DNA from: Sulfuriroseicoccus oceanibius
Lineage (GTDB): Bacteria > Verrucomicrobiota > Verrucomicrobiia > Verrucomicrobiales > SLCJ01
Length of the DNA: 64,000 nucleotides
Assembly: GCF_010681825.2 (NCBI RefSeq)
Contig: NZ_CP066776.1
Span: 2,852,001 to 2,916,000 of the forward strand
Reading direction: 5' to 3'
A model generated the notes under the pieces. It was not told the DNA's origin and did not search any database. It saw only the letters and a list, made by a program, of their open reading frames with translations. Positions 6,410 to 50,254 of the stretch are shown one piece after another (position 1 is the stretch's first letter; every line of letters begins with the position of its first letter). Position numbers and translations under genes: made by a program.

Positions 6410-7162
6410 TCAAAACAGCGGCGATGACTTTTTCCGCGCCTTGTCCAAATACAGCCACGTCCGCGCCACCACCTTGCCGGTCCCCGCGTCAATGCGATCA
6501 ATCCGCATCTCCTTGAGCACCCAGCCCTTCTTCATCTTGCGCGCGCTGATCACTTCGAACTGCTTCACACATTTGCCCTGCCAATTGTAGCCCTGCACCC
6601 GCATCAACGCACCGCTTTCACGATCCACCCAGGCAAAGACCGCCGCATACGGGCCCTCACGCCGCGGGTTGTTGGCACGAATCTTGAAGCAATCGCGGGT
6701 GGCCACACTTTCGACGATCCGTTTTCCGCTCTTGGGGTCCTTCTCAAAACTCGCGCTCTCCCAGAACAAAAAACGCAGTGCGATATCTTCAAAGTTCGCA
6801 TCCGTCCCGCGGATCGACTGCCCATAACTCTTCGAGGTCAGCTTCCGCACCTTGCCTGACGCATCTTTCACCAACACATCCTGCTTGCCACCGCTCAAAT
6901 CCAAAGTCAGCGTCTCCTTCGGGCGGGTGAAGGAAAACGAAATCGCCCCCCGGTCCATGCGCAGAGCAAATGGCACTTTCTTGCCCTCCGAGGTCCTCAG
7001 GTGCCCGGTCGTATCCATCTCCTGACCGCTGCTGTTGATCCGCACCCACTTCAGCATCTGCGCGGCTGTGGGTTCCGCCTCCGCGGCAACCGCCACACCA
7101 GCCATCGCCAGCGCGACCACCATCACCGCCCCGTTTTTGATCCAATCATTCAGCACCTTCAT
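6410..7162 (-). CDS. Exported LolA-like outer-membrane lipoprotein-sorting family protein
   Basis: From the ATG at 7162 the product is 250 residues (7165 is an equally possible start; the longer frame to 7198 adds no signal-like sequence). Residues 1-27 form a signal peptide (basic start, then AVMVVALAMAGVAVAA). The mature part is beta-rich, with a repeated pattern of long strands and a tryptophan-bearing segment (AAVFAWVDRESGALMRV, then KKGWVLKEMRID) typical of the outer-membrane lipoprotein-sorting (TP0789/LolA-like) families. Such proteins carry or bind lipids in the periplasm, but this subfamily has no settled function. The next gene on the strand, hslO, starts 106 bases downstream. It lies back to back with the glycosyltransferase at 7266, leaving about 100 bases for two promoters. 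Confidence 0.65.
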   Translation of the reverse strand: MKVLNDWIKNGAVMVVALAMAGVAVAAEAEPTAAQMLKWVRINSSGQEMDTTGHLRTSEGKKVPFALRMDRGAISFSFTRPKETLTLDLSGGKQDVLVKDASGKVRKLTSKSYGQSIRGTDANFEDIALRFLFWESASFEKDPKSGKRIVESVATRDCFKIRANNPRREGPYAAVFAWVDRESGALMRVQGYNWQGKCVKQFEVISARKMKKGWVLKEMRIDRIDAGTGKVVARTWLYLDKARKKSSPLF

Positions 7163-7265
7163 CATTACAAGTTGTTCGGCAGACGAATCGAACGTCAATT
7201 GAATTCATCCCATCCTCCGGAGAATCCTTTGACACCACCCATGGACAAGGGTTCATTCCCCGAAC

Positions 7266-8825
7266 ATGTGGAAGACGCACCGCTGGCTCCTGATTGCCCT
7301 CATTCTCTTGACGATCTGCCGTTGGATCATGGCGGGAGCCATTGAGCTGACGGAAGACGAAAGCTACTACCACCTCTGGTCGGAGCACCCAGCCCTCTCC
7401 TATTACAGTAAAGGCCCCGGAGTCGCAGCTACCATGGGCGTGTCCTCGTTCATCCTCGGCGACAGCGCCTTCGGCATCCGCTTCTTCTCGCCACTACTGG
7501 GACTGGCCACCAGCCTGCTCATCTTCCGCCTCGCCCGCAGTATCTTCGACACCAACACCGCCGCCTGGTCGGTCGTACTGCTCAATATTCTCCCGATCTT
7601 CAACGCTGGGTCGATCCTCCTTACCATCGACCCACTCTCGATCTTCTTTTGGACCGCTGCAATGCTCGCACTGTGGCGAGCCCTCCACCGCTCCAACGCA
7701 TCGTTCACTTGGTGGCCACTCACCGGCCTGCTCATTGGCCTCGGCTTCCTGTGCAAATATACCAACGCACTGCAGCTCATCTCAATCATCCTGCTACTGG
7801 TAATCGTCCGTCGCTGGCGCCCACATTGGCGCAAACCCGGCCCCTACCTGCTGCTCGCCACGTTCCTCGTCTGCACGCTCCCGGTGATCATTTGGAACGC
7901 CCAAAACCAGTGGATCACCGTCACCCACCTCATCGAACGCGGCCAACTCGATGAAGAAACCGGAGTCAATCCAGGTGAGTTCTTCAGCTACCTCGGAATG
8001 CATGCCGGGGTCTACTCACCGGTCATCTTCCTCGGTCTGCTCGCAGCCCTCTATCTCGGCATCAAGCGAGTCGGCAAAGACTTCGGCGAAACCTTCCTCA
8101 TTCTCTTCGCCGCACCAATCATCATTCTCTATTTCATCCTCTCGTTCAAAGAGGCAGGGGAAGCCAACTGGACCGCTCCGGGCATGCTCTCGCTCGGCGT
8201 TTTGATGATCCACTATTTCCAGCTCGCACGCTGGTCGAACCGAACCAAAGGCATCGTCCGGGCCACCGCCATTACCCTCTCGATCCTCCTGACCGCTCTC
8301 TCGCTCAACCTCGACGTACTGCGAAAAATGGGCGTCCAGTGGCCGTACTCTCTCGACCCCACCACCCGCCTCACCGGCTGGCAATCGACCGCCGATGCCG
8401 TGGAGGACGTCATCCGCAAATCCCAGGACAATCTCGGCGACGGCATCTTCCTCATCTGCGACCGCTATCAAAGCGCAGCCAGCCTCCATCACCACCTTCC
8501 AGACGACCTCAACCTGATCCGCCCAACGGAGGCCCACCCGAAGGTCTTCATCCCGCAGTCGTCCATCATCCTCAATCAATTCTCGTTCTGGCCCCGCTAC
8601 GACTCGATCGCAGGTGCTACCGAAGGTGAACCTGGATACACTCCATTCCTCGGAAAAAACGCCCTCTTCATCAGCACCCACCCGCGCAGCAACCCACCGG
8701 AAGAGATCCGTCGCGCATTCCGTCACACCCAACCGTTGAGCACGGTTGAAATCCGCCGATTAGGCATGAAACTACGAGATGTGCGGATCTTTGTCTGCTA
8801 TGACTACCAAGGCATCAGCCTCTAG
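7266..8825 (+). CDS. GT-C membrane glycosyltransferase (ArnT/PMT-like)
   Basis: The 519-residue protein has about ten to twelve hydrophobic segments and a short soluble C-terminus of about 150 residues. The first extracytoplasmic loop carries the acidic motif ELTEDESYYHLWSEHP, matching the D/E catalytic site of the dolichyl-phosphate-mannose mannosyltransferase and ArnT (GT39/GT83) group. These enzymes move a sugar from a polyprenyl-phosphate carrier to protein, lipid A or a surface glycan on the outer face of the cytoplasmic membrane. The GT2 gene 35 bases downstream is of the kind that makes polyprenyl-phosphate sugars, so the two probably supply donor and transferase for one modification. 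The acceptor cannot be told from sequence. Confidence 0.82.
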   Translation: MWKTHRWLLIALILLTICRWIMAGAIELTEDESYYHLWSEHPALSYYSKGPGVAATMGVSSFILGDSAFGIRFFSPLLGLATSLLIFRLARSIFDTNTAAWSVVLLNILPIFNAGSILLTIDPLSIFFWTAAMLALWRALHRSNASFTWWPLTGLLIGLGFLCKYTNALQLISIILLLVIVRRWRPHWRKPGPYLLLATFLVCTLPVIIWNAQNQWITVTHLIERGQLDEETGVNPGEFFSYLGMHAGVYSPVIFLGLLAALYLGIKRVGKDFGETFLILFAAPIIILYFILSFKEAGEANWTAPGMLSLGVLMIHYFQLARWSNRTKGIVRATAITLSILLTALSLNLDVLRKMGVQWPYSLDPTTRLTGWQSTADAVEDVIRKSQDNLGDGIFLICDRYQSAASLHHHLPDDLNLIRPTEAHPKVFIPQSSIILNQFSFWPRYDSIAGATEGEPGYTPFLGKNALFISTHPRSNPPEEIRRAFRHTQPLSTVEIRRLGMKLRDVRIFVCYDYQGISL

Positions 8826-12357: not shown

Positions 12358-13737
12358 CTAGCGCAATTGCAGTCCCGTGAGCAATAGCTCGGTGTTGTTC
12401 TGCGTGCGGGCGATATTCTTAAGCAACACCTGCATCGCATCGGGAGCAGGGAGCTGCGCCAACTGGCGACGCGCCACGTTGATCCTGCGCATCTCGTCCG
12501 GATGGTACAACAAATCATCCTTACGCGTAGCCGACTGCGCGAAGTGAATCGCAGGGAACAAACGTCGCTCGGCCATCTCCCGATCCAAGCGGATCTCCAT
12601 GTTACCCGTGCCTTTGAACTCCTCGAAAATGATATCGTCCATCTTCGATTCAGTCTCGACCAACGCAGTGGCTAGAATAGTCAAACTGCCTCCCTCTTCG
12701 GCGTTGCGCGCCGAGTTGAAGAATGTACGCGCCTTCTGCAATGCCTTTGAGTTCAATCCACCCGACATCGATCCACCGCCGCCACTGGCCAACGCGTTGT
12801 ATCCACGCGCAAGACGCGTCAAACTATCGAGAAGAATCACCACGTCCTTGCCGCGCTCAACCAAACGCTTGGCGCGCTCGAGCACGAACTCCGCCACCTC
12901 AATGTGACGCTTCGGATTTTCGTCGAAGGTAGAACTGAACACCGAGGCATTCACAGTCTCGCGGAAATCGGTCACCTCTTCAGGCCGCTCGTCGAGCAAC
13001 AAGATCACCAACTCCACATCGGGGTGGTTGGCATGAATCGCCGAGGCGATGCTCTTGAGCAAAATGGTCTTACCTCCCCGGGGTGGCGCCACAATAACAC
13101 CACGCTGCCCCATGCCGAGCGGAGCAATCAAGTCAACGGCGCGACATGCCGCATTCTTAAGCTCTGAGTTTTCGAGAATGATCCGTCGGTCCGGATACAT
13201 TGCTGTCAGGTGTTCGAATGGAGTCGCTGCCTGGTAATCTTCAGCCGGCAGTCCTTCCACCTCGAGCACGCGGCTCGCGGAAAGATATTTCTCACGGTCG
13301 CGCGGCGCACGGGCCTGCACTTTCACCTGCTGCCCATGGCGCAAGCCAAACTCACGCACGGTCTGCGCTGGTACGTAGATATCATCAGGCTGGGCGCGGA
13401 AGCTCGAAGATGGTGTACGCAACATTCCGAACGAGTTCTCGTTCTTCAGTTCAATCACACCCTCCGCTTCAATCACCGTCCCCCGCTTGGAGTAAAAGCA
13501 CAGCACATCAAAAATGATCTGGTGCTTGGTGCGCGAACTCACACGGACGCGCAATTCGTTACCAAGCTCATACAACTCCGGCAACGGGCGCTTCTGCATT
13601 TCAGCCAAAACCACCAACTCAGGCACATTCACTTCCTCCTCTTGAGGAGCAGCTGGCACCGCTTTGTTCTCCGTTGGCTCTGCCGGCTTGGCAGCTGCGT
13701 CGTCATTCTCTGGAGTAGAGGAATCGATCTCTGTCAT
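12358..13737 (-). CDS. rho: Transcription termination factor Rho
   Basis: The 459-residue protein is a complete Rho. Residues 1-40 are an acidic, Pro/Ala-rich extension. The N-terminal helical and cold-shock RNA-binding domains follow (LPELYELGNELRV, ENSFGMLRTP, DDIYVP). The ATPase domain has the P-loop VAPPRGGKT, the Walker B ILLDSLTRLARGYN, the secondary RNA-binding R-loop around SKALQKARTFFNSARN, and EEGGSLTILATAL. Rho is a hexameric RNA helicase that releases RNA polymerase from untranslated transcripts. Its gene sits between coaE and rnd. Several genes in this window end at hairpins without a U tract, which would fit some dependence on Rho. Confidence 0.97.
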   Translation of the reverse strand: MTEIDSSTPENDDAAAKPAEPTENKAVPAAPQEEEVNVPELVVLAEMQKRPLPELYELGNELRVRVSSRTKHQIIFDVLCFYSKRGTVIEAEGVIELKNENSFGMLRTPSSSFRAQPDDIYVPAQTVREFGLRHGQQVKVQARAPRDREKYLSASRVLEVEGLPAEDYQAATPFEHLTAMYPDRRIILENSELKNAACRAVDLIAPLGMGQRGVIVAPPRGGKTILLKSIASAIHANHPDVELVILLLDERPEEVTDFRETVNASVFSSTFDENPKRHIEVAEFVLERAKRLVERGKDVVILLDSLTRLARGYNALASGGGGSMSGGLNSKALQKARTFFNSARNAEEGGSLTILATALVETESKMDDIIFEEFKGTGNMEIRLDREMAERRLFPAIHFAQSATRKDDLLYHPDEMRRINVARRQLAQLPAPDAMQVLLKNIARTQNNTELLLTGLQLR

Positions 13738-13907: not shown

Positions 13908-14576
13908 TCAGTCACCGGCTTCCGAATGATCGTCTACCGGTGCGTTGGCCAATCGCTTGTGAAGCAGAACCACCTGGCTGCGCAAAGCATCCAAAGTCCC
14001 CTCATTCCAAACCACGAATGAAGCAAGCTTGAGCTTCTCAGCCACAGGCATCTGCGCGGCCAATATAGCGCGTGATGTCTCGTTGTCGAATCCGTTTCTT
14101 TCCTTCATCCTACGCATCTGCGTCGCCGTCCCAACGCCCACTACCACTGCCTTCGGGGCTTGTTCAAGAATCCCCGCATCGACGACGAATCGCCCCTCGC
14201 CCTCAAAGTACAATGGCACATCCGCAAGGAACCACCGGGAACCGTCATCGGCCGCCTGACGATATGCCTTCAACGCAGCAGCGCGCACCATAGGGTGCAC
14301 AATCCCCTCAAGCACCCGCCGCTTTTCCGGATCACCCATCACCAGTTCCCGCAACCCCGCACGATCGACACTTCCATCGTCAGCCACAGGGCAGCCCAGC
14401 ACGTCAACCAACCGGCCGACCACATCAGGGTCCCGGTACACCTCGTGCACCGCCTCGTCCGCGCAGAACAACGAACTACCAGAATAGAGCGCCTGCCACT
14501 CATCACAGAAACTCGACTTGCCACAGGCTATACCTCCGGTGACCACCAAAACCTCAGGGGAATTACGTCTATCCAT
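13908..14576 (-). CDS. coaE: Dephospho-CoA kinase
   Basis: The 222-residue protein begins with a P-loop, VVTGGIACGKSSFCDEW, and contains DEAVHEVYRDPDV and the lid-type segment GDPEKRRVLEGIVHPMVR, all typical of CoaE. It phosphorylates the 3' hydroxyl of dephospho-CoA, the last step in coenzyme A synthesis. Length matches the family. It lies 154 bases downstream of the secretin gene, behind a terminator, so it probably has its own promoter. Rho follows after 170 bases. Confidence 0.93.
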   Translation of the reverse strand: MDRRNSPEVLVVTGGIACGKSSFCDEWQALYSGSSLFCADEAVHEVYRDPDVVGRLVDVLGCPVADDGSVDRAGLRELVMGDPEKRRVLEGIVHPMVRAAALKAYRQAADDGSRWFLADVPLYFEGEGRFVVDAGILEQAPKAVVVGVGTATQMRRMKERNGFDNETSRAILAAQMPVAEKLKLASFVVWNEGTLDALRSQVVLLHKRLANAPVDDHSEAGD

Positions 14577-14730: not shown

Positions 14731-17334
14731 TCAGAACAGATCGCTGCTCGGACCGCCGGACACCGAGGTCTCACCGCTCACGTCGGTGCTGTACTCGTTG
14801 AGGTTCTTACCAGCAGGGTCGATCAGGCGAGCTGTCACGAAGACCATCAGGTTACGCTTGAAGCGCTCCTCTGCCTTGGTCTTAAACAAACGCCCCACGA
14901 TTGGGATGTCGCCAAGGATAGGCACCGAGTCCTCGATGTCCTGAACGTCTTCGCGGATCAAACCACCAAGCGCAACGGTCTGACCGTCCCACACGGTCAC
15001 CTGGGTCTTGACTCGGCGAGTCGAGAACACAGGCATGTCGATGCGGTTGTCGGTGATGGTCACACTGGTCGGACGACCAAGTGCGTCGATCGCAGGAGTC
15101 GTGATCGGGTTACCGTAGTTGATGAAGCCGTCGAACTCGACCACCTCTGGAGCGAGGTTCAGATCGATGGTGAAGTTGTTCGCTCCAACGGTTGGATCCA
15201 CCTCAAGAGTCACACCAGTGTTACGCGTTTCGAACGCGGTTGGTGTCGCAGGTGTCACAGGGAACGAGGTCACGGTAGCGACTCCGTCACCACCACCACC
15301 GTCACCGCCACCACCATCGATGTTGTTGGCGCCGACTGCGTTTGGAAGCTCTGGTGGATCGTACTCGGTTGGGTAGATGAATTCTCGAATCACCTCGACT
15401 CGAGCCGGTGTACCCGGGCGGGTGGTCACCTGCGGAGCGGAGAGAAGGTCAACGCCCTTCTTCTGGTTGAGCGCACGCATCACCACCTGGAACTGAGGCT
15501 CGGTCAGGATACCTGCGATGCCAAGCACGCCAGGTGCCACGTTCTCACCTTGTGCCTCGGAGATCGAGGAGTTGAGAATCGAATCAATTGCACCGCGTGT
15601 GATACCAAAATCACCGGAACGGTTACCAGCTGTCACTGGGTTGCTGCCGAGAGGCTGCGGAATGATACCCGAGGTTGGGTCGACCACCGGCCAATCGCCT
15701 GGGTTGACTGCGGTTCCGTTACCGGCGGTACCACCGGTCACGACCACACCCTTCTGGGAGTCAACGGTAAGAGGTCCAAGCAACCAGTCGAAACCGAGCT
15801 CGTAACCATTGCGCTGGGTCACTTCCACGAACTTAACGCGGACGTTCACCATCTTAGGCGCCTTGTTCTTCGCCTCGTCGACGATCACCTCAACCAACTC
15901 CATGGCCTGAGGTGTACCAGTCACGGTCAGCACCGAGTTACCTGGATCGTAGCTGGCACGACCATTCTCACCGAATGGGACACCACGGCTCTCAAGGTAC
16001 TCTTGTGCAGTCATGCGGGCAGCAACCGCGGCGCCACCGCCGCCACCGCCAGTAGCAAATGGATCATCGTTGAAATCAGCCGCACCGCCACCGCCATCGG
16101 TAGGAATGAAGGTTGGTGGGACATCAAAGCTGCGGGTGTAAACGTTCTTGTCGACAGAATCGTTAGGAGCCAACACGACCGCGTACTCTTCAACCTTCAC
16201 ACGCATGTCGGTCAAGTCGGCTACATAGCGAAGCACTTCACCAAGCGGCAGGTTGCGGAGGTTAATCTCCGAGATCAAAAGGTCGTCCGGGCGACCACCT
16301 TCAGCCAAGCTGCTGCGCGAGTCGATCACGATCGACACGCCACGGTTTGCCGGATTCGGATCGGTGTCGATCTCACGGCTCTTGTTGCGAAGGAACTGCA
16401 CCACTTCACGCAGTGTCTGATCTTCGAACTGAACGCTAGGAATGATCAGGCGGTCCAACTTGCGCTGAATGGCAAGGCGTCCATCTGTCTGTCCACCGTC
16501 ATCTTCAGATCCACCGAGTTTCGGCACATCGATCAATGCAGGCTTGATCTCCCACTCGCTGTCCACTTCCGCCAGCATCTCTGCACGGGTACGGGTACGG
16601 GCGACACTGTAGTATTCGATCTTGAAACGCTCGATCTTCTCGTGGAAGCGCTGAGCCGCTTTGTTGTACTTGTCGATGCGAAGCACCTGATCGAACATCT
16701 TCTCGGCATTGTCGTAATCGTCGAGAAGGAAATAGCTTTCACCAAGCTTGAGAAGACGGGTCACTTCAGCTGCTCGCTGCTGAAGCTCATTGTAATCGTC
16801 ACCACCGGTGCTCACCAACGGGAAGCGCTCTTCATCCTCCAGAAGCTCACGCATACGGAGCGCACGCTTGTTGCCTGGATCAACGGTTGGAAGCAGCACA
16901 TCGTCAATCAACTGACGAGCTTCGGTGTAACGCCCTTCGCCAGCGCGCTGCTTGGCAAGCAACAACGAGGCACGGACATAACGGGATGTCACCGACTCAT
17001 GAAGATCGGCAGTCACATTGCCGCGTGGAATCAGATCACGGGCTTCACGGAAATCCTGCAACGCGCCTTCGAAGTCGTCAGCTGCAAGTTTCTCATCGCC
17101 TTCCACAGCAATCTCACGCGCCTTCAACGTCATCTCCTGACGACGAATCAACTCGCGTTGAGCAGTGCTGCTAAGTCCGGATGAATAACCGGCCGATCCA
17201 TAGCCAGCTCCACCGGTGTACCCGGTCGAGCCCGCCAGGGCGCTTGGCATCGAAAGCGGCGTTAGCGCTGCAGCAGTCGCCGCAACAGCAGCCAGCTTCC
17301 AATAGCTTGTCTTTAAATTGTTTGTGTTTCTCAT
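14731..17334 (-). CDS. Amuc_1098-type secretin, PilQ-like outer-membrane channel
   Basis: The 867-residue protein has a signal peptide (residues 1-35), a short Gly/Ser/Tyr-rich stretch, TPR-like helices from about 50 to 270 (EKLAADDFEGALQDFREA, YFLLDDYDNAEKMFDQVL), a secretin N-domain near 290-400 (FEDQTLREVVQFLRNK, INLRNLPLGEVLRYVADLTD), a ring-building repeat around 445-520 and the secretin core from about 590. The signature at 790-850 is clear: VWDGQTVALGGLI, VPILGDIPIVGRLFK and RNLMVFVTARL. Type IV pilus secretins form multimeric outer-membrane pores. N-terminal TPRs are a feature of the verrucomicrobial Amuc_1098 family. It is the last gene of the five-gene locus, 91 bases after the Amuc_1099 homologue, with its own terminator. 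Confidence 0.92.
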   Translation of the reverse strand: MRNTNNLKTSYWKLAAVAATAAALTPLSMPSALAGSTGYTGGAGYGSAGYSSGLSSTAQRELIRRQEMTLKAREIAVEGDEKLAADDFEGALQDFREARDLIPRGNVTADLHESVTSRYVRASLLLAKQRAGEGRYTEARQLIDDVLLPTVDPGNKRALRMRELLEDEERFPLVSTGGDDYNELQQRAAEVTRLLKLGESYFLLDDYDNAEKMFDQVLRIDKYNKAAQRFHEKIERFKIEYYSVARTRTRAEMLAEVDSEWEIKPALIDVPKLGGSEDDGGQTDGRLAIQRKLDRLIIPSVQFEDQTLREVVQFLRNKSREIDTDPNPANRGVSIVIDSRSSLAEGGRPDDLLISEINLRNLPLGEVLRYVADLTDMRVKVEEYAVVLAPNDSVDKNVYTRSFDVPPTFIPTDGGGGAADFNDDPFATGGGGGGAAVAARMTAQEYLESRGVPFGENGRASYDPGNSVLTVTGTPQAMELVEVIVDEAKNKAPKMVNVRVKFVEVTQRNGYELGFDWLLGPLTVDSQKGVVVTGGTAGNGTAVNPGDWPVVDPTSGIIPQPLGSNPVTAGNRSGDFGITRGAIDSILNSSISEAQGENVAPGVLGIAGILTEPQFQVVMRALNQKKGVDLLSAPQVTTRPGTPARVEVIREFIYPTEYDPPELPNAVGANNIDGGGGDGGGGDGVATVTSFPVTPATPTAFETRNTGVTLEVDPTVGANNFTIDLNLAPEVVEFDGFINYGNPITTPAIDALGRPTSVTITDNRIDMPVFSTRRVKTQVTVWDGQTVALGGLIREDVQDIEDSVPILGDIPIVGRLFKTKAEERFKRNLMVFVTARLIDPAGKNLNEYSTDVSGETSVSGGPSSDLF

Positions 17335-17425
17335 AGTGGTGAACTAATCGCCTACACTCCCAGCTTCTGGGGGGGATGGACGGGGTAGAAAAGCATCAGG
17401 GTCAGTTGTCAATCAAGGCAAAAGA

Positions 17426-18496
17426 TCAATTTTGTTGAGGTTTTAGAGCAGCCCCTTTCGGATACTCCATGGTGATGAGCTTGCCAGTGGCCTTCTCTTT
17501 GATTTCGACGGTTGCCACCCCGTCGGTAACCTTCACCAATCGCAGTGTGTAACCACTGAGCAATTCCGGCAGATCACCGGAGTTCTGCAGCAGCTCCAAC
17601 TTCACCGGCTGGTCCGGTGAAGCGACAAATCCAAACAATCCGGAGACATCTCCGAAGTCCACCGTTTCACGGTCAGGGATCCGCTGCGTACGCTTTGGAT
17701 GCCCCTCCGGACGAGAGTGGTCAACGACGATCGCAGTTGGAGTTGCCCCCTGTTCGACCGAATCAAGCGAGAAACGTCCAGCCTCTTCCTTTCGCTTGTT
17801 GCTTGGAATCTTCTTCTTCAGACCATCCTGGTTGAGATACTCGTTCCACTGGCCAGTGCGACGGTTGGTACGGTCCGGATGCTTGAGCTGCCAGTCATTC
17901 GCTCCGATCGAACTGAACATGATCGGATACGGATCATTCAGCATGCGATCAAACACGAGCTTGTAGTAGTACGGCGGATGGCTCTCTGGATCAGTCGGAT
18001 CGAACGAGGTACCCATCGCTTTACCGAAGAGAAACTCCTCTTCGTTTGTGAAATGGTCACCATCCGGGTCAAGATTACCCACATTCTCGTACTCCTTCTC
18101 CAAACGATACTTCATCAGGTACTCATTGGTCATTGGAGGACGCAACAGCGGATCGTTCTTATCAAGATCAACGATCACACTCTCCCCCCCGTCTTTCTTA
18201 AGCACCAACGGAGTAGAAACCATGAATCCGCGCGGACGTCCGGCAGCTTCATAGTTCTTCCAGGAGTCAAACGAAACAGATCCGGCAATCTTCTTGGTAG
18301 CATCAACGGTCTGCTCGACCATCACCTGCTCTGGAGTCTGCCCACCAATCTTCGCGGTCACATCCGGAAGTTTGTATTCGTCGACTTCATCACTGAATGA
18401 GAGTGCACTGCTAATCACCCAACCACCCACGCCAAGCGCCACAACCCCGGCGGCGATCAACATGATTGGGTCTTCTTTGCGTACGGCTTTCTTCAT
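17426..18496 (-). CDS. Amuc_1099-type pilus-like system protein
   Basis: The 356-residue protein has a cytoplasmic tip (MKKAVRKEDP), one membrane segment at about 12-32 and a periplasmic remainder. The middle carries an EF-hand-like acidic loop, NLDPDGDHFTNEEEFLFG, and the aromatic block HPPYYYKLVFDRMLNDPYP. The C-terminal 120 residues look beta-rich (DVSGLFGFVASPDQPVKLELL). Position and topology match Amuc_1099 of Akkermansia. In type IV pilus machines the inner-membrane proteins PilN, PilO and PilP link to the secretin; this protein may take the PilP-like place, but that is inferred from gene order only. It lies 87 bases after the Amuc_1100 homologue. Confidence 0.8.
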   Translation of the reverse strand: MKKAVRKEDPIMLIAAGVVALGVGGWVISSALSFSDEVDEYKLPDVTAKIGGQTPEQVMVEQTVDATKKIAGSVSFDSWKNYEAAGRPRGFMVSTPLVLKKDGGESVIVDLDKNDPLLRPPMTNEYLMKYRLEKEYENVGNLDPDGDHFTNEEEFLFGKAMGTSFDPTDPESHPPYYYKLVFDRMLNDPYPIMFSSIGANDWQLKHPDRTNRRTGQWNEYLNQDGLKKKIPSNKRKEEAGRFSLDSVEQGATPTAIVVDHSRPEGHPKRTQRIPDRETVDFGDVSGLFGFVASPDQPVKLELLQNSGDLPELLSGYTLRLVKVTDGVATVEIKEKATGKLITMEYPKGAALKPQQN

Positions 18497-18583
18497 AATC
18501 TAATAGTTGCAGCTACCGGCTATTCGCCGGATCCCCGCATATTCGAGGCTGTGTAATTTGTGAACGTGTTGAACGAGTAAAGC

Positions 18584-19693
18584 TTAGTTCTGATCTGCGT
18601 CATCTCCCGCGAGCGGCTTAAACACGGTAAAGTCCAAAACCGCAGTGAGAATCACCTCTTCCGCACCAAGGAACACCACGGCATCCCGCCCCCCCTTCTC
18701 TTCGACGAGACTAGCCAACTCGGCAGCCGCACTGGCATCAAGCACCTCCTCCTCAGCAGCAGGCTCCTCGGCAGCAGCTTCTTCACCGCCACCAGCAAGA
18801 CGCGCAGCGCGACGCTCAGCGTCTGTCATTCCAGAATCTTCTTCGAATCCACCGAACTCACTGAAGCTTCCAAAATCGCTCATTCCACCCCCAGCAGGAG
18901 ATGAATCAACAACCTCCGACGACTGAATCCTTGCTTCAACCTCTTCCTTGGCAGGGGCCGTTGGATTGCTGTTACGCAAGTTGACATAACGCACTCCAAA
19001 GAGATGGTCCTCGGCCTTCACCAGATCATTCAACAAGCTCTGAACCTTGCCCTCAGGACCGCGCACAGCGATGACAATTTGGTAGGTATTCACAGGCGAC
19101 TCCACTTCGTCACCGTAATCATCGTCGTCATCAGATGCAGAAGCCGCGACTTCTCCCGCCACCTCTTGGCGCTCAAAGCGAACCAGCTCAGACATTCCAT
19201 TGGCTACCACCTTATCCAGAAGCCACGTAACAGCTTCCAGCTGATGATCCAACTCTGCGACCGCCGATGGGTTGGCCTGAATACGGTCACGATAGGTTTC
19301 GAACCCAAGGAAGAACCCATCAGGAACGGTAATCTTGCGGTTCTGCCAACGGTTGCGCAGCTCTTGATAACGCGCCTCGACTCGCTGACCAAAGGTATCG
19401 GGCGAACCAACTTCTCCTTTGAACGAATAGCGCTCAACCGCCTTCCGTAGCATCGCCTGAGCATCGGTCTCCAATTGAGCAACCGCCGCCTCCTTTGCTG
19501 CCACAACTTCCTTGACGGGAACTTCTTCGCGCGCCGCAGCGCCTTTCAGAGCTCGAAGCGACTTCTCAATCTCATCACGAGCGTCATCGGCGCGGCCTTT
19601 GCCGTCGATGGTCAGGTAGCCAAACACACCGGCACCCACAACCACGGTACCGATCAAACCTGCCAGGTACTGATTATTCTTAATCCAATTCAT
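18584..19693 (-). CDS. Amuc_1100-type pilus-like protein
   Basis: The 369-residue protein begins MNWIKNNQYLAGLIGTVVVG, a membrane anchor at about 8-28, followed by a long helical stretch with coiled-coil character (about 35-175) and a beta-alpha ferredoxin-like segment (YQIVIAVRGPEGKVQSLLNDLV). This is the layout of Amuc_1100, the abundant Akkermansia outer surface protein known for effects on host receptors, and of PilO. The homologue is about 50 residues longer than the 317 I recall for Amuc_1100. The extra length falls in an acidic patch (SDDDDDYGDE, near 190) and an Ala/Glu-rich insert (about 285-335). It is probably cotranscribed with the genes on both sides. Confidence 0.85.
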   Translation of the reverse strand: MNWIKNNQYLAGLIGTVVVGAGVFGYLTIDGKGRADDARDEIEKSLRALKGAAAREEVPVKEVVAAKEAAVAQLETDAQAMLRKAVERYSFKGEVGSPDTFGQRVEARYQELRNRWQNRKITVPDGFFLGFETYRDRIQANPSAVAELDHQLEAVTWLLDKVVANGMSELVRFERQEVAGEVAASASDDDDDYGDEVESPVNTYQIVIAVRGPEGKVQSLLNDLVKAEDHLFGVRYVNLRNSNPTAPAKEEVEARIQSSEVVDSSPAGGGMSDFGSFSEFGGFEEDSGMTDAERRAARLAGGGEEAAAEEPAAEEEVLDASAAAELASLVEEKGGRDAVVFLGAEEVILTAVLDFTVFKPLAGDDADQN

Positions 19694-19758
19694 TTCGTAT
19701 AAATTCTTCGCGGATCACATCCGCATGAGTCTTTGATTCAGGATTTCCTAACTTGGCA

Positions 19759-21525
19759 TTAGCGAAGCAAGATCGGCTCGGCAAGAGGCAAGGTCATCTC
19801 AAACGCCCAGGCGTAATCGTCATCGTTGCGGCTACTCACCTTCAAGCGCTTTGCCTTCTCTTGTGGCGGAACTTCAGCCAACACGAGCGGCCCCGTCTTC
19901 GATTCGCGCAAACGGTCGTAAATCTGATTAATCTGGTTCTGCCCCGCCGGAGCATTGCGCCAGAATCCCTTGATGCGGATCTCAGTCACCACATCAGGTC
20001 GCGGCTTCCCACCATCTTCCTCATCGAACTCGAGCTCTTCACCCACAGCGGTGCGCTCTTTCAGCGCTCCGAAGTCACGCACTCCAGTGCCTCCGGCCAG
20101 AGGCTCAAGATCGGTCACCCAAATAATATCGCTCGCAAACTGACGGTTAAGTTCATCAATGATACCTACCCAACGATCACGCATCTCGAAAATGCGCATC
20201 ACCGGACCTCGGTTCACATCGATCTCGGAAATCTGGTCATCAAGCACCGACAGATCTCGCTTGTTACCATCCACAACCTTACCCACTGCAGAGAACTCAC
20301 CCGCTTTGTCTTCGAGCTTGGAGGCTGCCATCTGCTGGTAAACAGCCCCAGCTCCCAGTGCCGCAAGCACACACACTGCCGCTGTCGTAAGAAACGGCTT
20401 CCGTGCGGCAATCTCACGCCGTGCAGCCACAGTCGCCGGCACCAAGTCTACATCCACAGGCACACCGCCTGCCTGACCAAGAGCAAGACCCACAAGCTCG
20501 CCCATCCGATGACCCACAGCTGAAACAGCCGCCGCATCGACCTGAGGACCCACAGCCACGTTGCGCATGGCATTAAAGTATTCAACCTGCGCGCCCAACT
20601 TATCGTGAAGGAATTCGATAGTGTAAGGAAGGGATGCTCCCCCTCCCGCCAGAAGCACGCGCTTTGGCACGGTACCGCCCTGCTGGGTACGGTAGAAGTT
20701 GTTGGTACGAACAATCTCAGAATGAAGGCGCGTCATCGTTGTGCGCACGATCTTGGAGATCGCGTCGATCCGAGGATCCGGATTCTCCTCATAGGCACCG
20801 CCAAGCGCCACATATCCATCCTGGATCTTTTGCTGTTCAGCAACCTGGAAGGTCACACCAAGATCCTTTGCAATCGCACTGGTCACCGAAGCGCCGCCCA
20901 CTGCGATCGTACGGGCAAACAAACTACCACCCTCGATATACAGAAGATTGGTACTGCGGGAACCGATATCGACCAACAAAACCGGCTCATCGACGTCCGG
21001 ATAGTTATAACGATACGCATTGTAAAGCGCCATCGCATCAACTCCGACGCCATTGACAACAAGCTTGGCATCTTCCACCACCCCGTTGAGGGAGTTCAAC
21101 TGATCAAGCTTGATTGCAAACAAACCGACTTCCAGGTCACCGTCAGCAGTCTCACCAAACACCTGGTAATCCCAGGCAACCTCGTCAATCGGGAACGGAA
21201 CGTGCTGCTGCGCCTCAAAGCGCACCATCTCGTCAATCTTGTCCTCGCTGACCGCCGGAATCTTCACAAAGCGAGTGAAGACCGACTGCCCCGAGATCGA
21301 ATAGCGGCAGCCTTCTCCCTTGGAGACACCCAACTGTTGGGTCACGCCATCCAAAGCGAGCGCGGTTTGGGAGATCTTGGCGGAGTCCAAAGTGGTATCC
21401 CCGTCCATCGCCTCAAATGCATGCCCTTGAAGAATCACCCCACCGGAAGGATCCGCCTGAAAGCGAGCCCCTGCCACGGTTTGAGATCCGATATCAATCG
21501 TCGTTATCAATGTTGATTTTGCCAT
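19759..21525 (-). CDS. Amuc_1101-type protein: PilM-PilN fusion
   Basis: Start at the ATG at 21525 gives MAKSTLITTIDIGSQTV and 588 residues; the longer frame to 21591 adds an unlikely leader. Residues 1-360 are an actin/FtsA-like ATPase domain of PilM type (IDIGSQTVAG, DKIDEMVRFEAQQHVPFPIDEVAWDYQ, VLLVDIGSRSTNL, RVLLAGGGASLPY). A single membrane segment at about 375-395 (LTTAAVCVLAALGAGAVY) is followed by a short coiled region and a PilN-like periplasmic domain (DELNRQFASDIIWVTDLEPL). In ordinary type IV pilus operons PilM and PilN are separate, with PilM binding the cytoplasmic tail of PilN. Here the two are one chain. It lies 65 bases upstream of the Amuc_1100 homologue. Confidence 0.88.
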   Translation of the reverse strand: MAKSTLITTIDIGSQTVAGARFQADPSGGVILQGHAFEAMDGDTTLDSAKISQTALALDGVTQQLGVSKGEGCRYSISGQSVFTRFVKIPAVSEDKIDEMVRFEAQQHVPFPIDEVAWDYQVFGETADGDLEVGLFAIKLDQLNSLNGVVEDAKLVVNGVGVDAMALYNAYRYNYPDVDEPVLLVDIGSRSTNLLYIEGGSLFARTIAVGGASVTSAIAKDLGVTFQVAEQQKIQDGYVALGGAYEENPDPRIDAISKIVRTTMTRLHSEIVRTNNFYRTQQGGTVPKRVLLAGGGASLPYTIEFLHDKLGAQVEYFNAMRNVAVGPQVDAAAVSAVGHRMGELVGLALGQAGGVPVDVDLVPATVAARREIAARKPFLTTAAVCVLAALGAGAVYQQMAASKLEDKAGEFSAVGKVVDGNKRDLSVLDDQISEIDVNRGPVMRIFEMRDRWVGIIDELNRQFASDIIWVTDLEPLAGGTGVRDFGALKERTAVGEELEFDEEDGGKPRPDVVTEIRIKGFWRNAPAGQNQINQIYDRLRESKTGPLVLAEVPPQEKAKRLKVSSRNDDDYAWAFEMTLPLAEPILLR

Positions 21526-21659
21526 ATTGATGAGTTTCCGAAATAAGTTCGCGTCCAGTGCTGAAGTACCAAACCGCCTCAGCCCAGCCACGTGAAGATA
21601 AATGTGTCAAAAAATTACCATCGCACCATCAGCGCGCGGCGCACTGGGTACCTCTGTCT

Positions 21660-21694
21660 AGAAAGACAAACAGCCGCGCTCTAACGAGCACGGC
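21660..21694 (-). terminator. Likely terminator or attenuator between Amuc_1102 and Amuc_1101 homologues
   Basis: On the minus strand a 9-bp stem with one mismatch (21694-21686 with 21681-21673, loop of four) is followed by a T-rich run, TGTTTGTCTTTC. It sits 12 bases after the stop of the Amuc_1102 homologue. The U tract is broken, so it may be a partial terminator that lowers expression of the downstream genes. Confidence 0.55.
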
Positions 21695-21705
21695 CGAACT
21701 CCCGA

Positions 21706-22341
21706 CTATCGCTCCTGCCGGGTCTGCGGGTAACGATCGTACCACAACAAAGCAAACGGGGTATTCCCCTTCGCTCGAATCAAACCGCTCTCACGCGGAT
21801 CAGACCACTTTTTCCACCATTCACCGCCCTTGGTCGACGCAAACAAGTCCTTAGGCTTGCTCATCGAGATATTTGGAGCCGTAACCGTCACACCAACCGA
21901 CTGCACATCACCCTTACTAGGCTTATCCTTCCCCACGAAACGGGCAAGTGTGTCCGGATCGACGTACGCCACGAGGTACGCCTTTTTGGAACCCGCACGA
22001 ATATTTGTGAAGGTGATCGAATCCGAAAGCATCACATACCTCGCCGCACGATCCGCCTCATTCGGAAGCGCCACGTAGAAGGTCGCAGTCAACTCCGGGA
22101 TCACTTTGGTCTCCGCACGGGAATCCACATCCAACTCCACCTCAATCTCCAACCACTCAAGTTGATCCCAGCGCTTGTCACGAGGACCAGCCGCTGCATA
22201 ACGAGGGGTCTGTTGCATCTCCACCTCAACCTTTTTAACTTCAACCTTATGTTGAACCTGAGCGGAGACGTATGTTGGCAACGCGGCCATTCCGACCACT
22301 GCCAACGCGAGGCTACGTGAGAATTTCTGGAGGGTTTTCAT
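21706..22341 (-). CDS. Amuc_1102-type pilus-like protein
   Basis: The 211-residue protein has a signal peptide (residues 1-28, ending VSAQ), then a beta-rich body. It contains KVEVKKVEVEMQQTP, a conserved WDQLEWLEIEVELDVD block, and ends with FALLWYDRYPQTRQER. Position at the head of the locus and overall features match Amuc_1102. Function is unknown; it is expected in the periplasm or at the surface. It is transcribed away from aroD across a 219-base divergent gap that should hold its promoter. A possible terminator directly after it suggests that it may be made in greater amount than the rest of the locus. Confidence 0.8.
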   Translation of the reverse strand: MKTLQKFSRSLALAVVGMAALPTYVSAQVQHKVEVKKVEVEMQQTPRYAAAGPRDKRWDQLEWLEIEVELDVDSRAETKVIPELTATFYVALPNEADRAARYVMLSDSITFTNIRAGSKKAYLVAYVDPDTLARFVGKDKPSKGDVQSVGVTVTAPNISMSKPKDLFASTKGGEWWKKWSDPRESGLIRAKGNTPFALLWYDRYPQTRQER

Positions 22342-22560: not shown

Positions 22561-23280
22561 ATGAGCCACGACACCTCATCCAATCTCCCTCACCCTCCGC
22601 GCGTTGTCACCACCATCAACAACGCGGACGACCTCGCATTCGCGCGCACCGCGGACCTACCATCACTTTGCGATGTGCTTGAGATTCGGCTCGACGGACT
22701 CCAAGAGACACCTCTCGAGCTCTCGGAACTTCAATCCCTCCACGCCACCACCCCACTCATCCTCACCGCCCGACGCGAGGACGAAGGCGCATTCTCCCCA
22801 ATGAGCGACGCAGCCAGGATCGACGCAATCCACCAAACCCTCCTCCAAGATGCCATGGTGGACCTCGAATTCCGAACCCTCAACTCTACTGCAAAAAGCC
22901 CAGCACTCACCCGGCTACTCGAAGCCATGAAGAACAACGGCAACACCATCGTGATGTCCTATCACGACTTCAACGGTGTACCAGACGAAGCACAGATCCG
23001 CGACCACCTCGCCTGCGCCAGGGAACACCGCGCGATCACCAAGATCGCAGCGACCGTCAACTCAACCACCCAACTCCAACTCTGGACCGAAAGACTCGCC
23101 CAACTGGAATGCTCCAACCAACGCTTCTCTTTCATGGGGATGGGGAAGTTTGGCATGGCCACCCGACTCATCGCTGCATCCGCAGGGTCGGAGCTCAATT
23201 ACGGATTCATCCAATCTGCATCAGTCCCTGGTCAATGGCCGGCCAAGCTCCTCAAGGCTACCATTGCAAAGCTTTCATGA
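22561..23280 (+). CDS. aroD: Type I 3-dehydroquinate dehydratase
   Basis: The 239-residue protein belongs to the class I Schiff-base enzymes of the shikimate pathway. Motifs are VLEIRLDGL, LILTARREDEG, His135 in VMSYHDF, the imine-forming Lys161 in ITKIAATVN, and FMGMGKFGMATRLIAAS near the end. It removes water from 3-dehydroquinate in the cytoplasm, on the route to chorismate. It stands 51 bases before the MCE operon on the same strand. A shared transcript is possible but there is no functional link. Confidence 0.93.
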   Translation: MSHDTSSNLPHPPRVVTTINNADDLAFARTADLPSLCDVLEIRLDGLQETPLELSELQSLHATTPLILTARREDEGAFSPMSDAARIDAIHQTLLQDAMVDLEFRTLNSTAKSPALTRLLEAMKNNGNTIVMSYHDFNGVPDEAQIRDHLACAREHRAITKIAATVNSTTQLQLWTERLAQLECSNQRFSFMGMGKFGMATRLIAASAGSELNYGFIQSASVPGQWPAKLLKATIAKLS

Positions 23281-37010: not shown

Positions 37011-37108
37011 CCGCAATCTCTTCTAAAAAAGAATCTTCCCTCTGGGCGGGTGTGTTTATAAATCGGATTATGCCGATAAAACACCCCGCCCTTTCTCGTA
37101 CCCGCCGC

Positions 37109-38518
37109 ATGCAAAAAACTTTACTCCTTTCGTTCGCGTTTGCCGCGTCGACTTTCGGAGCCATCGCAGACTCGACCACCGTCGAGATCAACGACTTCTC
37201 GCACGAGACGGCGGCGGAAAAAGCCGATCGGATGGCGTGGTTCGACGATGCCCGCTTCGGCATGTTCATCCACTGGGGCCTCTACGCCCAGCCGGCAGGT
37301 GTCTGGAAAGGCAAAGACTACCCGGGTGTTGGCGAGTGGATCCAGAAACACGCAGAGATACCGGTCGCGGAGTACGAGCCACTGCAAAAAACATTCAACC
37401 CACAGAGCTACGATCCTGAGTCATGGGTCAAACTCGCCAAGGCGGCAGGAATGAAATACATCGTGATCACCACCAAACATCACGATGGCTTCGCCCTCTA
37501 TGACTCAAAGTACACCGATTGGGACATGGGCGGCACCCCATACAAAAAGGACCTCCTCAAACCTCTCGCCGACGCCTGTCGCAAACACGGACTCAGGATC
37601 TGCTGGTACCACTCGATCATGGATTGGCACCACCCCCACTATGGCGACAAGGACATCCACCCGTGGATGGGCAACGGCACGATCGACCAACCCGACATGG
37701 CGATCTATTGCAAGTTCATGAAGGACCAGCTCCACGAACTGCTCACCGAATACGGCGACATCAGCCTCCTCTGGTTCGATGGCCAATGGGAAGGATCGTG
37801 GACCCACGAGATGGGCAAAGAACTCTACGACTACTGCCGCACACTCCAACCCGACATCATCATCAACAACCGGGTCGACAAAGGACGCAGTGGCGCCGCA
37901 GGTATGACCAAAGAAGGCACCTTCCGCGGCGACTACGGCACGCCGGAACAGGAGATCCCTGAGACCGGCTTCGGCGAGGGCGCCTATTGGGAGTCGTGCA
38001 TGACCATGAACGACACCTGGGGATTCAAATCAAAGGACCACAATTGGAAGTCCTCCGAAACCCTCATTCGCAACCTCATCGACATCGCCAGCAAGGGCGG
38101 CAATTTCCTTCTAAACGTCGGACCGACGGCAGATGGCATCATCCCACAGCCATCTGTAGAGCGCCTGCAGGACATCGCCAAATGGATGGATACCAACGCA
38201 GAGTCGATCCATGGCACATCGGCAAATCCATTCCCTGAAATCACGTGGAATGGCCGCTGCACCCGCAAAGAGACTCCCACAGGCACAGTGCTCTACCTCC
38301 ACCTTTTTGAGTGGCCGGAAAACAGGGAACTCACCCTGCCCCAATTCCCCAACAAGATCAAAAGCGCCACTCTGATGCACGCTGACACGGCGCTGGACTA
38401 TGAACTCCAGAGTGACAGTTGGCAGATCAATCTACCAACACAGCAGCCAGATCCAATCGCATCTGTTATCCGAGTGAATCTCGAAGGAGACCTGAAGCTA
38501 GAAGCACCGCAGCCATAA
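37109..38518 (+). CDS. Exported GH29 alpha-L-fucosidase
   Basis: The ATG at 37109 gives MQKTLLLSFAFAASTFGAIA, a signal peptide, and 469 residues; two upstream ATGs at 37052 and 37070 lack this fit. The GH29 catalytic barrel is clear: RFGMFIHWGLYAQPAG, MKYIVITTKHHDGFALYDS, YHSIMDWHHP, and LWFDGQWE with the likely nucleophile Asp224. GDYGTPEQEIP and GNFLLNVGPTADG follow. The last 90 residues form a small beta domain. The enzyme releases terminal alpha-L-fucose from glycans. Together with the sulfatase 10 bases downstream it points to degradation of sulfated fucose polysaccharides or mucin-type glycans. Confidence 0.92.
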   Translation: MQKTLLLSFAFAASTFGAIADSTTVEINDFSHETAAEKADRMAWFDDARFGMFIHWGLYAQPAGVWKGKDYPGVGEWIQKHAEIPVAEYEPLQKTFNPQSYDPESWVKLAKAAGMKYIVITTKHHDGFALYDSKYTDWDMGGTPYKKDLLKPLADACRKHGLRICWYHSIMDWHHPHYGDKDIHPWMGNGTIDQPDMAIYCKFMKDQLHELLTEYGDISLLWFDGQWEGSWTHEMGKELYDYCRTLQPDIIINNRVDKGRSGAAGMTKEGTFRGDYGTPEQEIPETGFGEGAYWESCMTMNDTWGFKSKDHNWKSSETLIRNLIDIASKGGNFLLNVGPTADGIIPQPSVERLQDIAKWMDTNAESIHGTSANPFPEITWNGRCTRKETPTGTVLYLHLFEWPENRELTLPQFPNKIKSATLMHADTALDYELQSDSWQINLPTQQPDPIASVIRVNLEGDLKLEAPQP

Positions 38519-38528
38519 CGCCCTACCA

Positions 38529-40022
38529 ATGAAGCTCACCGCCCTCGCCTCCGGCCTCCTCATCAGTCTCTGCTCCGCATTTGCCAAACCTCAAGCATCT
38601 CCGAACATCATCTTCTTCTTAGTCGATGATATGGGCTGGCAGGACACCTCACTGGCGTTCCATTCCGAGCGCACAAAACTCAACGAGGTCTATCATACCC
38701 CAACACTAGAGAGGCTTGCCACGGAGGGCACGCTCTTCACCAACGCCTACGCATGTGCCATCTGCTCGCCATCACGGGTCAGCTTGATGACCGGACAAAA
38801 CGCGGCACGCCACAAGGTAACCTGCTGGACGCTACGCAAGGACAAATCCCCCGAGCCCAACCACCCACATCTCGCCCCGAGCACGTGGAACGTGAACGGT
38901 CTGCAACCCATCGGCGCCGGTGTCCCCAACTCGGTAGAAGCCACTACCCTGCCGGAAGTGCTTCGCTCATACGGCTACCGAACCATTCACGTCGGCAAAG
39001 CTCACTTTGGTGCCATGGACACCCCAGGTGAAGACCCTGTAAACCTCGGCTTTGATGTCAACATAGCCGGCTTCGCGGGAGGTGGACCCGGTTCTTTCCA
39101 CGGCGACAAGAACTTCTCCGGCAAATGGCGGGGAGCCGACCCAATCTGGGACGTCCCCGGACTCGACAAATACCACGGTCAGAAAATCAACCTCACCGAT
39201 GCCATCACCCGTGAGGCAATTAGCGAAATCGATCGCGCGGTGGCGGACGAAAAACCATTCTACCTCTACATGGCGCATTACGCAGTCCACGCGCCTTGGG
39301 AGGACGACCGACGGTTCATCGAGAAATACCAAGGAAAAGGCCTCCCAAAGCAGCAAGCCACTTTCGCCTCCATGCTCGAAGGGATGGACCACTCACTCAG
39401 TGAGCTAATCAATACCCTCGACCGACACGGCATTCAGGACGAAACCATCATCGTCTTCATGTCCGATAACGGCTCCCCTCAACAGTGCCAACGGAACCTT
39501 CCCTTACGCGGGTTCAAAATCTCGGCCTACGAGGGCGGATCACGTGTCCCTCTGGTCGTAAAATGGCCGGGCGTCACCAAGCCAAACAGCCGCACGGATT
39601 ACCCGGTCATTATCGAAGATCTCTTCCCCACCATTCTCGAGATGGCTGGCAACCCGCCGACACCAAACGAGCACATTGACGGACACAGCATCGTCCCAGC
39701 GCTAAAAGCGCCGGATACCAATCACCCGGACCGCTCGCTCTTCTGGCACTATCCAAACTACTACAACCAGCCCGCCTTCAGCTCGATTCGCCGTGGGGAC
39801 TGGAAGCTCATCTATTGGCATAGTGACCAATCCGTCGATCTCTTCAACCTCAGTCAGGATCTCGGAGAACAACACGACATCTCAAAGCAGCACCCCGAGA
39901 TTGTAAACGACCTGCGAAGCGGACTCGGCAAACACCTGCGCTCTGTCGATGCCTCCATGCCCATACTCAAGGCGAGCGGCAAACGTGTTCCTTATCCAGA
40001 CGCGCCACTCGCTCAGGATTAA
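38529..40022 (+). CDS. Exported type I sulfatase
   Basis: The 497-residue protein has a signal peptide (residues 1-19, ending AFAKP). NIIFFLVDDMGWQD supplies the first metal-binding aspartates, and AICSPSRVSLMTG holds Cys79, the CxPSR cysteine converted to formylglycine by a maturation enzyme. Further S1 family blocks are HVGKAHFG, FMSDNGSP and the C-terminal GDWKLIYW. It removes sulfate esters from sugars or other compounds; the exact substrate subfamily cannot be told by eye. It follows the fucosidase by 10 bases, a two-gene unit. The formylglycine-generating enzyme is not in this window. Confidence 0.92.
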   Translation: MKLTALASGLLISLCSAFAKPQASPNIIFFLVDDMGWQDTSLAFHSERTKLNEVYHTPTLERLATEGTLFTNAYACAICSPSRVSLMTGQNAARHKVTCWTLRKDKSPEPNHPHLAPSTWNVNGLQPIGAGVPNSVEATTLPEVLRSYGYRTIHVGKAHFGAMDTPGEDPVNLGFDVNIAGFAGGGPGSFHGDKNFSGKWRGADPIWDVPGLDKYHGQKINLTDAITREAISEIDRAVADEKPFYLYMAHYAVHAPWEDDRRFIEKYQGKGLPKQQATFASMLEGMDHSLSELINTLDRHGIQDETIIVFMSDNGSPQQCQRNLPLRGFKISAYEGGSRVPLVVKWPGVTKPNSRTDYPVIIEDLFPTILEMAGNPPTPNEHIDGHSIVPALKAPDTNHPDRSLFWHYPNYYNQPAFSSIRRGDWKLIYWHSDQSVDLFNLSQDLGEQHDISKQHPEIVNDLRSGLGKHLRSVDASMPILKASGKRVPYPDAPLAQD

Positions 40023-46302: not shown

Positions 46303-47616
46303 ATGAAACTTCCCCATCCCCGCGCCACCAAGATCGGCGCTATCACATTGGTGTCATGCGCTGCCATGACTGTCAGCTCATGGGGTCTCTCCATCGGCGA
46401 GGCCGTCAACAAGGCTCTCTCGCGTGATCCCGCGATCAAACAAGCCGTAGCATCAATCTACCGCGCCGAAGGCTACTCGCGTGAGGTCAAAGCCGACTTC
46501 ATGCCTCAGGTCAATATCGAAGGACAAGCTGGATGGGCAAAACGCGACCGAAGTATCGACGGCGTAGCCACCGGAGGTGACGATTTGTTCAGCCGCCGTA
46601 TCGGAGTACGCGTTCGTCAGTTGCTCTTTGATTTCGGCTACCAGAAGAACCGTCTGCGGGACGCCCGCAAACGCGAAGAGGCCCAGGCCTATCTCGAGAA
46701 AGCCGTCCGCGATGCCATCGCACTGGAAACCGCCGCCGCCTACCTCGACGTAGTCGCCGCCCGTAAGGAACTCGCTCTGGCACACCGCAACCTCTCACTC
46801 CACAAGGAGATCGGAGAACTCGCCAAAGGCCGGACCAACTCCGTCGGTGACGATTCAGACGTCGAACTCTCCGCGGCACGGATCGAGTTGGCGGAAACCC
46901 TCGTGCTCGAGCGCGAACTGTCATTGGCCCAGGCCGAAGCCGCATTCGCCCGCTTCACCGGCATGGAGGCTCCCGCCAACATGTCCATGCCTCGCATCCC
47001 GAATATCACCAGCAAGTCGCAGATTGACCCTCGTGCCAACTGGCGCTACTCCGCGGTCACCACCCAGTACGCCGCTGCAATCCACCGTAAAAAGGCAAAG
47101 CAACGGAACAACTATCCCAAGTTCTTCCTCGAAGGCGGCGCATTCGTCGGTGAAGACGTTCTCGGCATTGAAGGACGCGACGACGAATACAACGCACTGC
47201 TGGTCATGAACTGGAGCGTATGGGACAGCGGCCGCAATAAAGGCGTCGTCCAACAAGCCCAAGGCGATATCGATGAACAAGCAGCCCTGATCGAAGAGAC
47301 TCTGGTCAAACTCGAACAGGACATTCGCTCGACCTGGGAAGACCTCGCCACCCACCGCCAACGTATCAACGTTCTCAACGTCTACTCGGATAAGTTGAGC
47401 CGGACCGGCGATCTCTACCAGAATCAGTTCGACAACGGAAAGCGCCCACTTCTCAGCTTGCTGGATATCCGCAATGAGAAAATCTCTGCGGACACACGCA
47501 TCGTTGATGAAGAAAAACAAGCTCGGATGCTCGCCTACGAACTCCTCGCTCTCGGCGGCAAACTCTCCACCTACTTTGACCCGGCTCAAGGAGGCAAAGG
47601 CGGAGTCGGCAAATAG
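46303..47616 (+). CDS. TolC-family outer-membrane channel, type I secretion
   Basis: The 437-residue protein has a signal peptide (about 1-28, ending SSWGLS) and two TolC-like repeats of long helices with strand pairs: IGEAVNKALSRDPAIKQAVASIY, NIEGQAGWAKRD, LLFDFGYQKNRLRDARKREEAQAYL, and later FFLEGGAFVGEDVL, NWSVWDSGRNKGVVQQAQGDI. The repeated FDFG/WDSG turns and the helix ending YQNQFDNGKRPLLSLLDIRNE are typical of AggA/LapE type I secretion channels. It should form a trimer reaching into the periplasm. The matching adaptor and exporter lie about 2.7-6 kb to the right on the other strand. It has its own terminator. Confidence 0.87.
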   Translation: MKLPHPRATKIGAITLVSCAAMTVSSWGLSIGEAVNKALSRDPAIKQAVASIYRAEGYSREVKADFMPQVNIEGQAGWAKRDRSIDGVATGGDDLFSRRIGVRVRQLLFDFGYQKNRLRDARKREEAQAYLEKAVRDAIALETAAAYLDVVAARKELALAHRNLSLHKEIGELAKGRTNSVGDDSDVELSAARIELAETLVLERELSLAQAEAAFARFTGMEAPANMSMPRIPNITSKSQIDPRANWRYSAVTTQYAAAIHRKKAKQRNNYPKFFLEGGAFVGEDVLGIEGRDDEYNALLVMNWSVWDSGRNKGVVQQAQGDIDEQAALIEETLVKLEQDIRSTWEDLATHRQRINVLNVYSDKLSRTGDLYQNQFDNGKRPLLSLLDIRNEKISADTRIVDEEKQARMLAYELLALGGKLSTYFDPAQGGKGGVGK

Positions 47617-47650
47617 CCGCGAAATTCTCCATCTCAACAGATTCCTCCAA

Positions 47651-47686
47651 GCGCCCGTGTAGCACCGCTGCACGGGCGCTTTTTTG
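47651..47686 (+). terminator. Rho-independent terminator after the TolC-family gene
   Basis: GCGCCCGTG (47651-47659) pairs perfectly with CACGGGCGC (47671-47679), with a further AGC/GCT pairing inside, followed by six T residues. Confidence 0.93.
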
Positions 47687-49218: not shown

Positions 49219-49268
49219 TCTCTAACGCATCCGAGGCCCATCCCAAGGAGCTCATCTCCTCGCCCCTA

Positions 49269-50196: not shown

Positions 50197-50254
50197 TTCT
50201 TGCCAAAAGGTGGGGGCTCAACATGCGACCTCCGTTTCGATTCATCCAATCGCC

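Follow-up and report, generated by a model that had tools for sequence, protein, structure and literature searches.

A MUL2 locus with a PilM-PilN fusion: probable secretin and alignment complex of a type IV pilus of the Verrucomicrobiota whose motor genes are dispersed

When a secretin and parts of a pilus alignment complex are encoded together with no pilin or motor gene beside them, which machine do they serve? The question is raised by a locus in the window, by which we mean the whole 64,000-nucleotide stretch of DNA analysed (positions 2,852,001 to 2,916,000 of a 3.50-Mb single-contig genome). Five open reading frames at 14731-22341, all on the minus strand, were placed by NCBIfam in the order Amuc_1098, 1099, 1100, 1101, 1102. 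The initial annotation had recognised this set and proposed, from the missing neighbours, that it may be used for something other than a standard pilus. Profile searches confirmed the identity of all five genes. Four of the five products passed the curated NCBIfam cut-offs, and Amuc_1100 stayed under its own (160 vs 180 bits).

The gene at 14731-17334 (minus strand, 867 aa) encodes an Amuc_1098-family secretin, a PilQ-like outer-membrane channel with a TPR region and a secretin domain. It scored 1059 bits with NF042912 (cut-off 750) and matched Pfam Secretin with an E-value of 1.6e-33, so the last gene was rightly called a secretin. At the other end, the gene at 21706-22341 (minus strand) encodes an Amuc_1102-family secreted protein (NF042424, 181 bits, cut-off 55; E-value 5e-13 with the Amuc_1102 structure, PDB 7dsz). 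Its sequence has what appears to be a Sec-type signal, and Pfam gave no match to the prepilin motif (N_methyl).

The locus is flanked downstream by coaE (dephospho-CoA kinase, 13908-14576, minus strand, Pfam CoaE), which lies outside the machine, and by the rho transcription terminator gene (12358-13737, minus strand, identified from its translation); upstream lies aroD (type I 3-dehydroquinase, 22561-23280, plus strand, Pfam DHquinase_I). The same three conserved neighbours, labelled 'dpck', 'ttfr' and '3dqd' (3-dehydroquinate dehydratase), are described in the synteny published for MUL2 in Akkermansiaceae of the gut and in aquatic ones (PMC13174399). MUL2 denotes Amuc_1098-1102 of Akkermansia muciniphila and the Akkermansiaceae (Davey et al. 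2023, as cited in PMC13174399; Wilkie et al. 2026, PMC13174399; Ottman et al. 2017, PMC5332112). With all five families present and adjoining, their order and strand kept, and identical flanks, the locus is a MUL2 locus, a kind already known from gut Akkermansia and aquatic relatives. Its occurrence beyond the gut, which the initial annotation had pointed out, is already published for aquatic Akkermansiaceae (PMC13174399).

The central product is the Amuc_1101-family protein (19759-21525, minus strand, 588 aa; NF045709, 732 bits, cut-off 650). A longer open reading frame from a GTG start, to 21591, is possible but unlike the family start, and the ATG at 21525 was used. The PilM part covers residues 1-350 and is followed by a PilN N-terminal motif (VDVDLVP, about 356-364), a membrane helix (about 375-400), and a coiled coil with a PilN-like domain up to residue 588. 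The PilM part matched Pfam PilM_2 (E-value 8e-31), residues 1-353 aligned with Myxococcus PilM (PDB 3jc8, E-value 5e-36), and Thermus and Pseudomonas PilM structures were also matched. The PilN N-terminus that binds PilM has an INLLP-type form. In the alignment, relatives carry a PilN-type segment of this kind, CPIEINLLPP, a few residues ahead of the membrane helix, and the window version reads VPVDVDLVPA. A profile built from the sequence of 19 relatives past this motif found Myxococcus PilN (PDB 3jc8) with an E-value of 1.6e-7. Pfam PilN matched five of the 19 relatives (best 1.5e-5) and gave no match with the window protein itself.

The C-terminal part of the fusion was modelled by AlphaFold with a pLDDT of 83.5. 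Foldseek of the modelled PilN part gave no significant match; the weak ones were to Thermus PilN (4bhq, Foldseek probability 0.51) and XcpY (5n7l, 0.80), both with E-values of about 0.4. The PilN identity is thus based on the sequence profile and the motif. The PilM and PilN components of a type IV pilus were both found, PilN with weak Foldseek matches. By its sequence the 588-aa protein is a true PilM-PilN fusion, in agreement with the first reading of the gene. An Amuc_1101 profile matched 153 of 175 genomes of the phylum at an E-value of 1e-20 or better, mostly with matches extending through the membrane helix and in reading frames roughly 550-640 aa long, which makes the fusion a phylum-wide trait and no peculiarity of the gut.

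Between the fusion and the secretin lie the Amuc_1100-family protein (18584-19693, minus strand; NF038287, E-value 8e-47), with a single membrane helix and a periplasmic domain, and the Amuc_1099-family protein (17426-18496, minus strand; NF042425, 115 bits, cut-off 50), with one N-terminal membrane helix, a TSP3-like acidic loop and a C-terminal beta domain. The window Amuc_1100 protein matched solved Amuc_1100 structures with an E-value of 4e-8, and a profile of its relatives reached 1e-79 with PDB 6lad/6kny (Amuc_1100). According to reviewed structural studies, Amuc_1100 is related to proteins of type IV pili and of type II secretion (PMC13119276). The NCBIfam match of Amuc_1099 spans only model positions 8-226 of 321, and nine of 19 Amuc_1099 relatives matched the bacterial TSP3 repeat (TSP3_bac). 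Pfam PilO and PilP gave no match with the relatives, and homology of Amuc_1099 to PilP was found neither with Pfam, nor with a PDB profile, nor with AlphaFold and Foldseek (model pLDDT 73). The gene order corresponds to M/N-O-P-Q, which puts Amuc_1100 in the PilO place and Amuc_1099 in the PilP place; from these positions we infer that they do the PilO and PilP jobs.

No prepilin, PilB/PilT, PilC or PilD family was matched among the five products with Pfam and NCBIfam, and none was seen in the neighbours coaE, rho and aroD, so the reported lack of such genes next to the locus stands. On the chromosome as a whole, searches gave seven PilB/PilT-type ATPases, 12 matches of the prepilin type and a single prepilin peptidase. 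Two PilB/GspE-type ATPases (PilB1 and PilB2), PilC and a GspG-like prepilin are encoded at G000:C1 2.181-2.187 Mb (L014), with no secretin or PilMNOP gene adjoining them. Two adjacent PilT-family genes, a PilT/PilU-like pair, lie at 1.62 Mb (L017:8088-9182 and 6951-8060, minus strand), and the single PilD at 1.51 Mb. The extension ATPase PilB, the platform protein PilC, the retraction ATPase PilT, prepilins and PilD of a type IV pilus are thus all present in the genome together with the secretin.

In distant relatives the two sets are joined. One genome (G157, L050) has an unbroken cluster in the order PilB1-PilT-PilB2-PilC-1102-PilMN-1100-1099-secretin. A second (G015, L049) has PilB1-PilT-PilB2-PilC, three prepilins, a gap, and then 1102-PilMN-1100-1099, with the secretin beyond the end of the stretch read. 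In a third, from another family (G055, L051), the motors adjoin two secretins, 1099, 1100, PilMN and one gene that occupies the position of 1102. In G015 and G055 the motor set and the locus set lie within 20 kb. The 1100 and 1099 calls in these distant loci were based mainly on position and on alignment with the family.

Co-occurrence was determined across 175 genomes of the phylum. A PilB1 orthologue was present in 145 of 153 fusion-positive genomes and in one of 22 fusion-negative ones (Fisher p 1.3e-19, with genomes that are not independent and phylogeny uncorrected). Presence was taken as a score of at least about 500 bits, a cut set post hoc where the distribution of scores has a gap. 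The exceptions were eight fusion-positive genomes without a high-scoring PilB1, some of them maybe assembly gaps, and the one fusion-negative genome with PilB1. PilB1 and the fusion were jointly absent in several families, including four genera of a family (f6) in which most other genera have both, and the seven genomes without a PilB match at 1e-80 were also without PilT and the fusion. PilT was found in 15 of the 22 fusion-negative genomes and is thus loosely linked to the fusion. Akkermansia-like genomes (a label that is our own reading from kinship) had PilB1 (54-59% identity) and, in all those sampled, two PilT-family matches, each of six tested had seven prepilins and one PilD, and in the one that was checked for it the order was PilB1-PilB2-PilC with a prepilin downstream.

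The possible use for something other than a standard pilus, suggested from the missing neighbours, is not supported in view of the motor, prepilin and PilD genes on the same chromosome, the co-occurrence of PilB1 with the fusion, the joint cluster in G157 and the close linkage in G015 and G055; the motorless reading is not correct at the level of the genome. A related possibility is that the secretin machine has no filament of its own and, as a pump or channel independent of PilB/PilT, imports polysaccharide (or exports protein), the motors linked to it in certain lineages being coincidental. The absence of pilin or motor genes next to the locus would fit this, as would the ability of secretins to serve export systems and the published work tying MUL2 to mucin and glycan accumulation (PMC13174399; PMC5332112). 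However, coincidence sits badly with the near-obligate presence of PilB1, the unbroken G157 cluster with PilB1, PilT, PilB2 and PilC, and the close linkage in G015 and G055, and we regard a machine without a filament as very unlikely.

The L014 motors and their prepilin could also form a type II secretion-like machine of short pseudopili that exports enzymes such as sulfatases and fucosidases and makes no long retractile pili. The prepilin is GspG-like, and PilB1 and PilB2 scored nearly equally as PilB and as GspE. Yet the architecture at the locus is PilM-PilN and not GspL, PilT is present and lies within the joint clusters, and type II secretion-like genes with a secretin of their own occur separately in the genome (L015), which leaves the pseudopilus improbable by a wide measure.

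Another complete set, resembling a pilus or a type II secretion system and including a secretin, was also observed at L016:6703-18147 (G000:C1 about 2817700-2829150). It has PilB-like and PilT-like ATPases, a PilC-like gene, two pilin-like genes and, in the PilM/PilN place, a 591-aa protein with no Pfam or NCBIfam match. The alignment complex might be driven by this system, which lies about 40 kb from MUL2 and has motor and pilin genes, instead of by L014. But L016 has, besides its secretin, three genes of its own in the M/N-O-P place, and the joint clusters of relatives hold PilB1, PilB2 and PilC of the L014 type, so that we give this arrangement hardly any credence. The motors of L015 and L016, as two further secretin-bearing systems, are nevertheless shareable in principle.

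Taken together, the MUL2 locus probably encodes two parts of a Verrucomicrobiota type IV pilus, its secretin and its alignment complex, and dispersed motor genes would drive this pilus in trans. The PilM-PilN fusion, Amuc_1100 and Amuc_1099 would form the inner-membrane alignment complex, with Amuc_1098 as the secretin and Amuc_1102 as an accessory secreted protein; the M-N-O-P-Q order kept at the locus supports this assignment. The pilus would be driven by PilB1/PilB2, PilC and the prepilin of L014, retracted by the PilT pair, with PilD encoded at 1.51 Mb. Since the motor genes lie hundreds of kilobases away, their partnership with MUL2 in this genome is drawn from comparison, and we infer that the dispersed parts function as one machine in this organism. 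A plausible role, taken from the MUL2 literature, would be to attach to fucose-rich or sulfated glycans and take them up.

Amuc_1100 is usually presented as a probiotic protein of the outer membrane or the pilus surface. More tentatively, MUL2 could work as a full motor-driven type IV pilus that, on retracting, draws polysaccharide strands to or through the secretin, and Amuc_1100 would then be an inner-membrane PilO-like strut of this machine; we hold this extended reading to be possible, with the odds somewhat against it. It bears on the place in the cell of a protein that is developed as a probiotic ingredient. The analysis removes the false lead of a motorless secretin complex and, if the pilus reading is true, MUL2 function in Akkermansia and its relatives should depend on the unlinked pilB1-pilB2-pilC and pilT. 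A limited literature search found no paper linking Akkermansia PilB/PilT to MUL2, and one may exist; the genomic evidence for the pairing of MUL2 with a specific unlinked motor set may be new.

Additional Amuc_1098-type secretins were also observed. A second one in the genome studied (L018:10422-12935, plus strand; G000:C1:2125422-2127932) scored 940 bits, is 46% identical to the MUL2 secretin and is unlinked to MUL2; its next gene encodes a 518-aa protein without a significant Pfam family. Unlinked second copies are also found in Akkermansia-like and other Verrucomicrobiales genomes, and tandem pairs occur in or near the locus in G055 (L051:7029-11691), G125 and G078 (L114, L115). In a secretin tree each tandem pair clusters by genome (two of the three pairs have long branches). 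Clustering is by family for the unlinked copies from family f1 and for one set of those from f3. An ancestral tandem pair as the source of the second secretin was thus unsupported by the tree, and repeated independent duplication is likelier.

Elsewhere in the window, the fucan-type enzymes noted initially were indeed found: an alpha-L-fucosidase (Pfam Alpha_L_fucos) adjoins a sulfatase at 37052-40022, which fits the use of sulfated fucan. At 46303-63975 a TolC-type outer membrane protein, an HlyD-type adaptor and a type I ABC exporter are encoded along with a repeat protein of 3311 aa that contains a von Willebrand A domain; together they resemble a set for a giant adhesin secreted by a type I system.

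Among known systems, MUL2 of the Akkermansiaceae has the five families, their order, the neighbours coaE, rho and aroD and a PilM-type Amuc_1101 in common with our locus, whereas the host studied here comes from a different family within that order and its Amuc_1100 is more diverged, falling below the NCBIfam cut-off. With the type IVa PilMNOPQ complexes (Myxococcus xanthus 3jc8, Pseudomonas 5eox, Thermus 2ych) it shares PilM and PilN homology, the INLLP-type motif ahead of the PilN helix, and the M-N-O-P-Q order with the secretin last. It differs from them in that PilM and PilN are in one chain, an extra Amuc_1102 opens the set, Amuc_1099 is not a recognisable PilP and has, in many relatives, an acidic loop resembling TSP3, and in this genome the motor genes are not linked to the set. 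Type II secretion (GspC/D/L/M) likewise combines a secretin with actin-like and ferredoxin-like inner-membrane parts, and XcpY (GspL) was a weak fold match; however, the sequence matches of our locus are to PilM and PilN and not to GspL, and the type II secretion-like set L015 is separate from it.
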